From: Propionibacteriales bacterium
Lineage (GTDB): Bacteria; Actinomycetota; Actinomycetes; Propionibacteriales; Nocardioidaceae
Assembly: GCA_025929075.1 (NCBI GenBank)
Contig: JAICMS010000005.1
Coordinates: 1 to 53,741 of the forward strand
DNA: 53,741 nucleotides
Direction of reading: 5' to 3'
In this document: piece by piece, positions 18,719-25,081 of the stretch
How positions within the stretch are numbered: the stretch's first letter is position 1
Layout: every line of letters starts with the position of its first letter
Translations under genes and position numbers: made by a program
Notes under the pieces: model-generated
The model's input: the letters and a program-made list of their open reading frames with translations, nothing else
What the model was told of the DNA's origin: nothing
Database searches by the model: none

Positions 18719-20387
<1,669 letters not shown>

Positions 20388-20401
<14 letters not shown>

Positions 20402-20912
20402 CGTCTCCCGTCGTCTCGGCGGATCGCCGGCTCTCGCGGATCGCGCCGGCCTCTCTGGGCCCGGCCGAGCCGAGCCGCTCGGCGATTGCTCCGAACGCGC
20501 GGCCGAGCCTCACCAGGTCATCTTCCTCGATGAGGTCGACAAGCGCGTCGCGCACCGACTGCACGTGGTCGGGGGCGGCGTCGACGAGCTTGGCGTAGCC
20601 CTTGTCGGTCAGGGCGGCGATCACGCCGCGTCCGTCGGAGTCGCACTGTCGCCGTACGACGAAACCGTCGGCCGCCAACCGGTTCACCGTGTGGGTGATG
20701 CGGCTGCGGGAGTTCTTCACGGAGTCGGCGAGCTCGGCCATCCGCAACGCCTTGTCCCCCGACTCCGACAGTCGGACGAGGATCTCGTACTCGGCCAGTG
20801 ACAGGTCATGCTTCTCACGCAGGTCGCGCTCCAGCCGCTCACTGAGCAGGGTGCTGCCGAGCAGGTAGGCGCGCCAGGCCCGCTGCTGGTCGGTCGTCAG
20901 CCACTCGGTCAT
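20388..20912 (-). CDS. MarR-family transcriptional regulator
   Basis: A 174-residue winged-helix protein. A helical N-terminus (LSERLERDLREKHDLSLAEYEIL) is followed by the DNA-binding helix SRITHTVNRLAADGFV near residues 69-84, a wing (VRRQCDSDGRG) and the C-terminal dimer helices. It is divergent from a YceI-family gene and shares a 94-bp intergenic region that carries two palindromes, so it very likely represses that gene and itself. The ATG lies 6 nt after TAGACT, pointing to a leaderless transcript. The ligand is unknown. Confidence 0.9.
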
Positions 20913-20918
20913 ACGGTC

Positions 20919-20924
20919 AGTCTA
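20919..20924 (-). promoter_or_regulatory. -10 box (TAGACT) of the marR-type gene, leaderless
   Basis: TAGACT ends 6 nt before the ATG at 20912. The -35 region would fall inside the first operator palindrome. Confidence 0.55.
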
Positions 20925-20930
20925 CAGGCT

Positions 20931-20946
20931 AGTTGACTTTTCAACT
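20931..20946. promoter_or_regulatory. MarR operator copy 1
   Basis: AGTTGA-CTTT-TCAACT, a perfect 6-bp inverted repeat. It covers the -35 of the YceI-gene promoter (TTGACT at 20933-20938) and the -35 region of the divergent marR-type gene. Confidence 0.7.
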
Positions 20947-20961
20947 TAATCGCGCTACTCT
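20933..20961 (+). promoter_or_regulatory. Promoter of the YceI gene
   Basis: TTGACT (20933-20938), 17-bp spacer, TACTCT (20956-20961). Both boxes fit sigma-A consensus. Transcription would start near 20968, just before operator copy 2. Confidence 0.6.
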
Positions 20962-20970
20962 TCTGTAATC

Positions 20971-20986
20971 GGTTGAACATTCAACT
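20971..20986. promoter_or_regulatory. MarR operator copy 2
   Basis: GGTTGA-ACAT-TCAACT, same half-sites and spacing as copy 1 with one outer mismatch. Its centre is 40 bp from that of copy 1, and it lies about +4 to +19 of the predicted YceI transcript. Confidence 0.65.
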
Positions 20987-21006
20987 AGTTGCGAGGAGCC
21001 GCACCA

Positions 21007-21567
21007 ATGACCACGACCACGATCGAAACACGCTTCGCCGGCCTCGTCTCCGGCGTGTGGGCCATCGACCCCGCCCACTCCGAGGTCGGCTTCACCGTCC
21101 GGCACCTGATGAGCAGGGTCCGCGGTCAGTTCCGGTCCTTCGAAGGCGCTGTGACGATCGGTGAGAACCCGCTGGACTCCAGCGCACTCGCCACCATCGA
21201 CCTCAGCTCGGTCGACACCGGCAACGCCGACCGCGACACCCACCTCCGCTCGTCCGACTTCTTCTCCGTCGACACCACGCCGAAGATGACGTTCGTCAGC
21301 ACCGGCATCCGTCTGGATGGCGACGGTGCGATCGTCAGCGGCGACCTGACGATCAAGGACGTCACCAAGCCCGTCGAGCTCTCTGTGGAGTTCCTGGGCA
21401 CCGACAAGGACGCCGCTGGCAGCCTGCGTGTCGGCTTCGAGGCGACCACCGAGATCAGCCGCAAGGAGTGGGGCATCACCTTCAACGTCCCGCTCGAGGG
21501 CGACAAGGTCATGATCGGCGACAAGGTCGCGATCGTGCTCGCCATCGAGGCAGTTCACCAGGGCTGA
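21007..21567 (+). CDS. YceI-family lipocalin-like protein
   Basis: A 186-residue cytosolic protein (no signal peptide) of the YceI family, an extended lipocalin-like barrel that binds polyprenoid lipids in studied members. The opening GVWAIDPAHSEVGFTVRHLM, the LDSSALATIDLSSVDTGNADRDTHLRS region split by the typical loop, and FFSVDTTPKMTF and LTIKDVTKPVEL are family hallmarks. The ATG at 21007 follows GAGGAG. It is under a predicted MarR-controlled promoter. In actinomycetes such MarR-YceI pairs are common; the physiological lipid is unknown. Confidence 0.9.
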   Translation: MTTTTIETRFAGLVSGVWAIDPAHSEVGFTVRHLMSRVRGQFRSFEGAVTIGENPLDSSALATIDLSSVDTGNADRDTHLRSSDFFSVDTTPKMTFVSTGIRLDGDGAIVSGDLTIKDVTKPVELSVEFLGTDKDAAGSLRVGFEATTEISRKEWGITFNVPLEGDKVMIGDKVAIVLAIEAVHQG

Positions 21568-22910: not shown

Positions 22911-24035
22911 TTACGTCCGCTCCTGGGCAGCACGTTTGGCCGGGTTGCCAGAACCTCGCTTGATGCGCTTCTGCGCCGCCGGCTGGCCGGCCCTCCCACG
23001 CTTGCCGCCGCTCGCGGACATCCGCCTTAACGCGGTGACGAAGATGTTCGCGTATCCGGCGAGGTCCTCGACCACTTCCTCCGGCGCCGCATCGGGGTCG
23101 ACCTCGTTGCTGATCCAGCGGCGGGCCGCGTCAGCGGCAAACACCTCGTTCCAGGGTCGCTGCCAATGCTGTTGCGCGAACGCCTCGTTGTCGGCAGCGA
23201 AGCGGGCCGTGATGCGCGCGGCGGAGTCGGCGTCGACGCCGATGAACGGTTGGGCGAACCAGCCACGCTCGCGCGCCTCGACGAAGCTCGCCTCGCGGGC
23301 CCGGACGCGCAGCGGCGGGTCGAGCTCGAGCGTCCATGGATAGTGCTTCATCAGGTAGCGCAGGCCCGCCACGGTCATGCTGCCGGGGTTCTCGTTGACC
23401 CGCTCGGCCGGCCCCAGATGCGCTCGCTCGACCTGCTCGTCCGGCACGCCGCCGGCGCGGAGCATCAACTCCGCAATGCGTGCACCCTTCGCCTCGACGT
23501 TGAACGGCACTGCCACGAAATGCACCAGCGGCTGCGTGCTCCACGCGTTGAAGCGCCCGTTGTGTTCAAGCCAGGCGTTGTCGTCTGCCGCGAAATCTGC
23601 GAACGGGCCGAGGCGGCGGAAGTCCTTCACTTCCTGGACGTACCAGGAATTCATCATCTCGGCCTGCGGACGGATGAACGCCACGGCCGTCAGCGAGAAC
23701 CCGTGCTCTCGTGCCAGGTCCGCCAGCGCGGCGACCGTGGTCGAAGGAAGCGACGGATTGCTGAAGCCTTCGGAGGACAGCACGACGTAGTCGGCCCTTG
23801 TCGAGCTCATGGTCGCGGCGAGTTCGTCCGGCCCGTAGACCAGCGAGATGCCGGGTCCCGGCCCTGTCCGCATGAAGCGTGCCAGCGAGTGATGCGCCTC
23901 GAGCGGCTGGGTCTTCCGTGACGTCGGATACAGGATTGCGGCCGACTCCAGGCCGCGGCGACCGGCCGAGAGCACCCGCTGAATGGCGGTGGAGCCGGTC
24001 TTGTAGGGACCGATGTGGACGATGAGGCTTTTCAT
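22911..24035 (-). CDS. Sulfotransferase-fold protein with basic tail
   Basis: A 374-residue protein whose start IVHIGPYKTGSTAIQR (residues 5-20) is the PAPS 5'-phosphosulfate loop of sulfotransferases. A later VVLSSEGF and the FIRPQAEMMNSWYVQEVK segment resemble the 3'-phosphate binding region. The last 35 residues are lysine- and arginine-rich (KRGRAGQ, KRIKRGSG), an unusual tail. The ATG at 24035 is preferred to GTG 24044 because TAGAAT ends right before 24044, so a transcript would start between them. Sulfated acceptor unknown; orphan gene. Confidence 0.7.
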   Translation of the reverse strand: MKSLIVHIGPYKTGSTAIQRVLSAGRRGLESAAILYPTSRKTQPLEAHHSLARFMRTGPGPGISLVYGPDELAATMSSTRADYVVLSSEGFSNPSLPSTTVAALADLAREHGFSLTAVAFIRPQAEMMNSWYVQEVKDFRRLGPFADFAADDNAWLEHNGRFNAWSTQPLVHFVAVPFNVEAKGARIAELMLRAGGVPDEQVERAHLGPAERVNENPGSMTVAGLRYLMKHYPWTLELDPPLRVRAREASFVEARERGWFAQPFIGVDADSAARITARFAADNEAFAQQHWQRPWNEVFAADAARRWISNEVDPDAAPEEVVEDLAGYANIFVTALRRMSASGGKRGRAGQPAAQKRIKRGSGNPAKRAAQERT

Positions 24036-24124
24036 GGCGGGCACATTCTAGGCGCGCCGCCAGGCACGGCCCGGGCCGACGAGTGCCGCTGCTGCCGCCG
24101 TACGTTCGGCTGTCAGGATGAGGC

Positions 24125-24541
24125 GTGGCCCGACATGTCTACGCGCTCAAGCCGCGATGGTCCGACCTCGACGCGTTCGGTCACGTCAACAATGTGACCT
24201 GGCTGGAGTACCTGCAGGAGGCGCGCGTGGACATGCTGTTCGTGCATGCTTCCGAGCAGGGCGCCGAGCGGCTTGCCGAGGGCGTCCTCGTCGTCAGGGC
24301 GCAGATCGACTACAAGCGACCGATGGTCTTCCGTCAGGAGCCGTACCTCATCGAGATGACCGTTTCGGGGCTCCGCGCCGCGTCGTTCTCGATCGACTAC
24401 GACATCGTCGACCCTGACGGTCTGGGCGGCGCGCGTTATGGCAGCGCCTCGACGACGTTGGCGCCGGTCGACCTCTCCACGGGTCGGCCGCGTCGACTGA
24501 CCGACGGTGAGCGGGCGGCACTCGTCGCGTTCTCGGGTTGA
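24125..24541 (+). CDS. Hotdog-fold acyl-CoA thioesterase
   Basis: A 138-residue single-domain protein of the 4HBT/YbgC type. SDLDAFGHVNNVTWLEYLQEAR (split here: D16, H20, then VNN and E28) is the active-site helix entry of this family, and RAQIDYKRPM is the matching strand. It would hydrolyse acyl-CoA thioesters in the cytosol. The GTG at 24125 leaves the usual 15 residues before the catalytic aspartate. It is followed by an OsmC-type gene on the same strand. Confidence 0.88.
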   Translation: MARHVYALKPRWSDLDAFGHVNNVTWLEYLQEARVDMLFVHASEQGAERLAEGVLVVRAQIDYKRPMVFRQEPYLIEMTVSGLRAASFSIDYDIVDPDGLGGARYGSASTTLAPVDLSTGRPRRLTDGERAALVAFSG

Positions 24542-24652
24542 GACGCCCGCTTGTCGCCGTACGACGGCGGGCATCGTCGATGGGCGGGAGCCGGGCTGAT
24601 TCGGGCCGGGGCAGGATGGAGGAAAAGCCAACCGACGATCGGAGTGCACGCC

Positions 24653-25081
24653 ATGGCCACGACACGCACAGCCAACGCCCACTGGGAAGGGTCGCTCATG
24701 GAGGGGAGTGGCACGGTCTCGCTCGACTCCTCCGGTGTCGCCTCGTTCGACGTGTCCTGGCCTGCGCGGGCAGAGGAGCCGGGCGGCAAGACCAGCCCCG
24801 AGGAGCTCATCGCCGCCGCTCACTCGGCGTGCTACAGCATGGCGCTCTCGCATGCCCTGAGCCAGGCCGGCCATGAACCGCAGTCGGTGGACACCAGAGC
24901 CGACGTCGACTTCCAGCCCGGCACAGGAATCACCGGCATCAAGCTCACGGTTCGGGCCCGCGTGGACGGGCTCGACGACAAGGAGTTCCAGAAGGCCGCC
25001 GAGGGCGCCAAGACCGGCTGCCCGGTCTCGCAGGCGCTGTCCGCGACCCCGATCTCCCTTGAGGCCACCCTCGAGTCCTGA
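24653..25081 (+). CDS. OsmC/Ohr-family peroxide-reducing protein
   Basis: A 142-residue protein with the two redox cysteines of the OsmC superfamily: C60 in AAHSACYSMAL and C123 in KTGCPVSQAL. The spacing and the preceding TSPEELIAAAHS fit OsmC subgroup members that reduce organic or hydrogen peroxides in the cytosol. The ATG at 24653 has GGAG 9 nt upstream. It follows a thioesterase gene after 111 bp and is convergent with the MFS gene. Confidence 0.9.
   Translation: MATTRTANAHWEGSLMEGSGTVSLDSSGVASFDVSWPARAEEPGGKTSPEELIAAAHSACYSMALSHALSQAGHEPQSVDTRADVDFQPGTGITGIKLTVRARVDGLDDKEFQKAAEGAKTGCPVSQALSATPISLEATLES

Follow-up and report, generated by a model that had tools for sequence, protein, structure and literature searches.

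The marR–yceI intergenic region and its palindromes

The window (the whole 53,741-base stretch of DNA analysed here) carries a MarR-family repressor gene and a yceI-like gene, arranged divergently around a 94-nt gap (20912 to 21007; Table 1). The marR product scored above the curated cut-offs of two Pfam domains (MarR_2, PF12802, 41.1 bits against a cut-off of 27, E = 2e-10; MarR, PF01047, 39.2 bits against 24.6, E = 6.4e-10). The yceI product aligned with positions 1–150 of the 150 in PF04264 and matched the structure of TT1927b (PDB 1wub_A, 2e-32), and a signal peptide was not obvious in it when judged by eye. Together with the conservation described below, these matches bear out the divergent MarR/YceI pair with twin operators that an initial annotation of this DNA had proposed. 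An EttA-like ABC-F protein gene precedes marR in window coordinates, and an OsmC-family frame adjoins a 4HBT thioesterase-like gene on the far side of yceI, which makes a peroxide- or lipid-stress neighbourhood possible.

Table 1 Features of the marR–yceI locus and nearby genes (positions in the window)
Feature	Positions	Strand	Remarks
EttA-like ABC-F protein gene	18719–20401		NCBIfam PRK11819
marR, MarR-family repressor gene, SCO3205/AbsC-like	20388–20912 (20391–20912 without stop)	-	174 aa
Predicted marR -10, TAGACT	20919–20924	-	6 nt from ATG; leaderless transcript predicted from 20912
Operator 1, AGTTGACTTTTCAACT, AGTTGA-N4-TCAACT	20931–20946	none	Centre 20938.5; on predicted yceI -35, just upstream of marR -10
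Predicted yceI -35, TTGACT	20933–20938	+	Within left arm of operator 1
Predicted yceI -10, TACTCT	20956–20961	+	17 nt after -35; start point expected near 20968
Operator 2, GGTTGAACATTCAACT, GGTTGA-N4-TCAACT	20971–20986	none	Centre 20978.5; about +4 to +19 from the predicted yceI start point
Likely RBS of yceI, GAGGAG	20993–20998	+	From sequence; 8 nt before ATG at 21007
yceI-like gene	21007–21567	+	186 aa; Pfam YceI (PF04264) 6.7e-49
377-aa frame	22911–24044	-	No NCBIfam match
4HBT thioesterase-like gene	24125–24541		Adjoins OsmC-family frame
OsmC-family frame	24551–25081		3 kb from yceI

Both palindromes were found where they had been annotated, with a centre-to-centre distance of 40 bp. Allowing up to two mismatches, the palindrome pattern gave 9 strand-hits against 2.56 expected, a number attained in none of 100 shuffles. 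The core TTGA-N4-TCAA occurs exactly twice in the window, both times in the marR–yceI gap, and among 20,000 dinucleotide shuffles of this intergenic stretch none contained two such cores and 33 contained one. The annotated yceI promoter, TTGACT-N17-TACTCT, is likewise present (20933–20961). A stricter built-in promoter scan found no promoters and did not call it, which is accounted for by a -10 element with only three of six consensus bases; the sequence does match a less strict TTG/TANNNT form that occurs among relatives.

Conservation of the twin site and its promoter geometry

We collected MarR homologues by protein alone (E up to 1e-20) from 116 of the 117 genomes of the order, the source genome included, and examined the best locus of 70 of these 116 genomes (30 supplied by the search itself, and 40 selected manually off the ranking so that families were covered, at a stage when no site had been viewed). 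A pair was defined as two TTGA-N4-TCAA elements, each with at least 7/8 core bases, lying 25–60 bp apart. Such a pair was present in 31 of the 35 loci with a close divergent yceI (window included) and in none of the 35 without one, compared with 0/1,750 and 1/1,750 shuffled regions. A good pair was absent from four yceI-linked loci (L019, L036, L040, and L050). Of the 35 unlinked MarR loci, 7 have a single exact site in front of marR and the other 28 have none. Thus, the twin site follows yceI and not marR alone, and the half-sites, whose conservation in relatives had been named beforehand as a test, are kept in these 31 of 35 linked loci. An earlier PWM count over 55 loci was set aside in favour of this site-blind count as partly circular, given that its sites had been drawn from the very loci being counted, twin-site scans had supplied 20 of the 55, the threshold was generous, and in two cases the region had been truncated at the yceI match.

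The promoter elements are conserved together with the operators. Of the 31 twin-site loci (window included; linked loci below 7/8 core matches, four in number, are omitted from the promoter and spacing counts), 25 have a TTG inside operator 1 or immediately before it that is followed 16–18 nt on by TANNNT, against 5.6% after shuffling of the sequence that separates the two operators, and loci of several families have TTGACA contained in operator 1. The TTGA of operator 2 starts 8–13 nt past the -10 element, at about the start point, in all 25 loci with this promoter form; all four loci spaced at 46 bp are among the six that lack it. On the marR side, a possible start codon is preceded by TANNNT at a distance of 5–8 nt in 31/31 loci (3.2% in shuffles), from which a leaderless marR message is predicted, with operator 1 upstream of its -10 element. 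This geometry agrees with the placement given in the initial annotation, in which copy 1 covers the yceI -35 element and overlaps the marR promoter (here its upstream part) and copy 2 lies just after the yceI start point. Site 1 could therefore block both promoters and site 2 that of yceI alone.

We further scanned for the twin site by pattern only, without regard to genes, and found it in 82 of 394 genomes of the class (9 in the reversed control) and in 56 of 197 genomes of the family (2 in the control). A SCO3205/AbsC-like MarR was detected in 29 of 30 fetched family loci and yceI in 23, compared with 17 and 3, respectively, in 30 class loci fetched among the matches listed. These gene counts rely on profiles built from the order-wide MarR homologue loci, and several of the family loci belong to genomes already in the order-wide survey and are thus not fully independent; in two of them (L113 and L135) the MarR match lies within a long stop-to-stop frame. 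Among the 13 fetched class loci without this MarR, three (L097–L099) end near contig edges, and a more distant MarR-like frame adjoins the site in another (L082). The other nine of the 13 (L101–L109) carry near-identical TTGATCGTTCAA twins, and in the two that were read (L101 and L105) the frame beside them is of LacI type by our reading of its sequence, so TTGA-N4-TCAA alone is not specific to MarR. In five further class loci (L087–L091), three TTGA-N4-TCAA elements 31–34 bp apart lie directly before the MarR gene, and no yceI occurs within the fetched 3 kb.

Operators were also found before yceI genes away from the regulator. In 20 genomes where yceI does not adjoin the best MarR, we found 25 yceI homologues (L144–L168), of which 9 have an exact TTGA-N4-TCAA within 250 nt upstream (0.01 in shuffles), compared with none in 279 other stretches of the same loci. 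These unlinked homologues share 40–49% identity with the window YceI, against 52–63% for linked ones, and on this ground may be paralogues. Another MarR-like frame (30–38% identity) lies near 3 of the 25, and in several genomes there are multiple SCO3205/AbsC-like MarR genes, so a paralogous MarR may use the unlinked sites. Alternatively, regulation may persist at a distance in lineages where marR and yceI are apart, in which the DNA-reading residues of MarR are kept.

The regulator and its characterized relatives

The nearest solved relatives of the window MarR are 3zmd_A (6.8e-31) and 3zpl_A (7.1e-31), with the next best match at 2.2e-11. According to the portions of the structural report used here (PMC3737563), these are AbsC (3ZMD) and DNA-bound SCO3205 (3ZPL) of Streptomyces coelicolor, which places the window protein, judged by sequence, in the SCO3205/AbsC subfamily. 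The window protein retains the SCO3205 DNA contacts Arg60, Met61, Arg72, Ser73, Arg74, His77, and Arg81; among the backbone contacts given in those portions, it has Ala for Thr62 and Thr for Ser76. The base-reading Arg72, Ser73, and His77 are unchanged in all 73 aligned rows (the 70 loci, window included, plus L080, L083, and L139 from the twin-site scans; the L139 protein is 66% identical to the window MarR). The Trp16/His119 pair is also kept in these rows (Trp13/His116 in the window pocket). The same pair holds salicylate in AbsC (3ZMD; PMC3737563, in part). Since homologues not linked to yceI have it as well, it gives no hint of a ligand particular to yceI. In a quick-method tree, used for family grouping only (31 of 71 inner branches were open, and SCO3205 and AbsC sat on long branches), homologues grouped largely by family, with four yceI-label changes against a shuffled mean of 24.7. 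This pattern fits, without proving, an old marR–yceI pair that may have been lost in some lineages.

SCO3205 offers the closest precedent. As described in the same portions of its report, it has two operators in the 119-nt sco3204–sco3205 gap, with 24-bp footprints, KD values of 1.3 and 2.4 nM, and the consensus TTnAAnnnTCAA; surface plasmon resonance indicated two independent sites, each bound as a separate 24-mer with nanomolar KD (PMC3737563). Operator 2 of the window fits this consensus exactly, and operator 1 is off by one base (C for A). The two systems thus resemble each other in subfamily, in a pair of TTGA/TCAA operators within a divergent gap (94 nt here), in the base-reading residues, and in the Trp/His pair. 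They differ in that, in the account available, the divergent gene of SCO3205 is class III extradiol dioxygenase-like and not yceI, and one operator core (TTTAATGTTCAA) is not a clean TTGA-N4-TCAA palindrome. AbsC (SCO5405) is equally close in sequence and shares the Trp/His pair, but carries Lys in place of the base-reading Arg72, and the partial account links it to zinc-dependent antibiotic control with one predicted site of its own.

Two regulators of Corynebacterium glutamicum also invite comparison. AesR, in the extract consulted, is a MarR protein with two operators in a divergent gap, but its motif is ACTATG-N3-CATAGT and its targets are different (PMC13413800). RosR (Cg1324), of MarR type, has two sites of its own in the excerpted description (PMC7764795), and its neighbour cg1322 is proposed to encode a polyprenyl-compound binder (PMC5401885, in part). 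Its likeness to the window system, as far as these descriptions go, lies in the MarR-type regulator, the two own sites, and the polyprenyl-linked neighbour. The RosR consensus is reportedly TTGTTGAYRYRTCAACWA, with GTTGA-N4-TCAAC in common with the window operators, and RosR is said to sense peroxide through three cysteines and to control a wider regulon. The window MarR differs in having a single cysteine, and the window YceI in its lack of an obvious signal peptide, cg1322 being a proposed secreted protein. A search for the C. glutamicum rosR locus via the published site returned two unrelated records only (L078 and L079).

Elsewhere, a YceI-family gene adjoins the methylglyoxal-responsive Burkholderia regulator MgxR, according to part of the relevant report (PMC4349456). 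No SCO3205-type regulator of yceI was found among the matches listed for the open-licence PubMed Central literature. SCO3205 and AesR have already established this kind of system, a divergent gap that holds two operators for a MarR protein, and the new points are modest, namely a twin site tightly tied to yceI and a -35 element embedded in an operator.

Proposed regulation and alternative readings

We consider it probable, at roughly 0.8, that a local, autoregulated MarR of the SCO3205/AbsC subfamily represses yceI and its own gene. As we infer from the sequence features, their conservation, and the conserved DNA-reading residues, a MarR dimer on each palindrome would shut the yceI promoter, with operator 1 occupancy hiding the -35 element and operator 2 covering the start point, and operator 1 would also block the promoter of the predicted leaderless marR. 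MarR would be released by a signal, for which a small acid of aromatic or lipophilic character bound in the conserved Trp13/His116 pocket is the likeliest candidate, and the lipocalin-like, lipid- or isoprenoid-binding YceI and the regulator itself would then be produced. Repression of both genes with autoregulation was foreseen in the initial annotation, and the prediction is well supported by conservation (31/35 linked loci; promoter geometry). Counted against it are the single-base departure of operator 1 from the SCO3205 consensus, the different divergent gene of SCO3205, and the 28 of 35 unlinked loci without an exact site though the DNA-reading residues are kept. The arrangement also leaves room for activation by one of the two sites.

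A different trigger is conceivable though rather unlikely, namely a redox switch like that of RosR, in which oxidation of a conserved cysteine would free the repressor and induce YceI under oxidative or quinone stress. Such a switch would accord with RosR as a MarR-type, peroxide-sensitive, autoregulated protein with two own sites, with the OsmC-family gene 3 kb away, and with Cys90, the single cysteine of the window MarR, a residue conserved in 32 of 38 yceI-linked rows and in 15 of the 35 remaining rows. Cys90 is also common to the SCO3205 and AbsC structures. However, it is replaced by S or A in the other 6 linked rows; one cysteine also contrasts with the three ascribed to RosR, as does a YceI without a signal peptide by eye with a cg1322 product proposed to be secreted.

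A more far-reaching version of the local-repressor reading seems doubtful to us. It would make this MarR a dedicated YceI-repressor lineage of the Actinomycetes, with an operator half-site serving as the -35 element and a second operator at the start point as a two-site clamp, and with a tie to yceI so firm that operators persist before yceI genes away from the regulator. The ligand would then be the isoprenoid or lipid bound by YceI, which would buffer its own inducer. YceI proteins bind lipids or polyprenyl compounds, and their roles are mostly unclear. The possibility that the unlinked yceI genes are paralogues weakens this version.

We judge it improbable that repression is cooperative or looped through an interaction of two same-face dimers over 40 bp, as the initial annotation had predicted from a distance of four helical turns. 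With 10.5 bp to the turn, this distance amounts to 3.8 turns and misses the fourth by some 70 degrees. The spacing is not kept in relatives either, since the 31 loci range from 34 to 46 bp (34 in nine loci, 36 in two, 37 in three, 38 in three, 39 in two, 40 in three, 41 in four, 42 in one, and 46 in four). It varies by up to 8 bp inside one genus (38, 39, and 46 bp), with 34, 37, 38, and 39 bp in another. Looping would be in keeping with two nearly alike sites that hold their order around the promoter, and with a weak phase trend after collapse to 17 genus-by-spacing values (R 0.39, P about 0.08), but over the 31 loci no clear phase preference emerged (Rayleigh, P about 0.4). Four-turn phasing as a conserved design is rejected on these 31 loci, and a common DNA face is not supported. 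Promoter geometry (the positions of the -35 element and the start point), and not helical phase, seems to dictate the spacing. A loop of 40 bp would be very short for duplex DNA. The SCO3205 operators, in the portions of the report used here, are moreover bound independently (PMC3737563), and nothing in our data calls for looped or same-face cooperative repression at this one locus.

That the palindromes belong to another regulator, with the adjacency of marR incidental, is highly improbable, because the LacI-type frames beside such twins and the lack of upstream sites in most unlinked relatives of the window MarR are outweighed by the association with MarR and yceI in both the gene-blind and the site-blind scans and by base-reading residues and an operator core as in SCO3205.

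If yceI is controlled by a local SCO3205/AbsC-like repressor, as we favour, a conserved regulator with a strict operator would offer a handle on YceI, in that whatever frees MarR from DNA is probably a physiological signal for YceI. The operator, as defined by its conservation, can also serve directly as a model when regulons are sought across this order of Actinomycetes. The 2.69-Mb draft genome itself contains TTGA-N4-TCAA four times (once in the reversed control) and GTTGA-N4-TCAAC three times (control 0). Two of the four exact sites are the marR–yceI pair, which, with exact sites alone counted, suggests that the regulator probably acts locally; a wider regulon in this genome was rejected, with only two extra exact sites against one in the reversed control. 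The two further sites lie at C10:601 and C129:37474, of which the latter precedes a 401-aa frame by about 100 nt and may be a chance occurrence.
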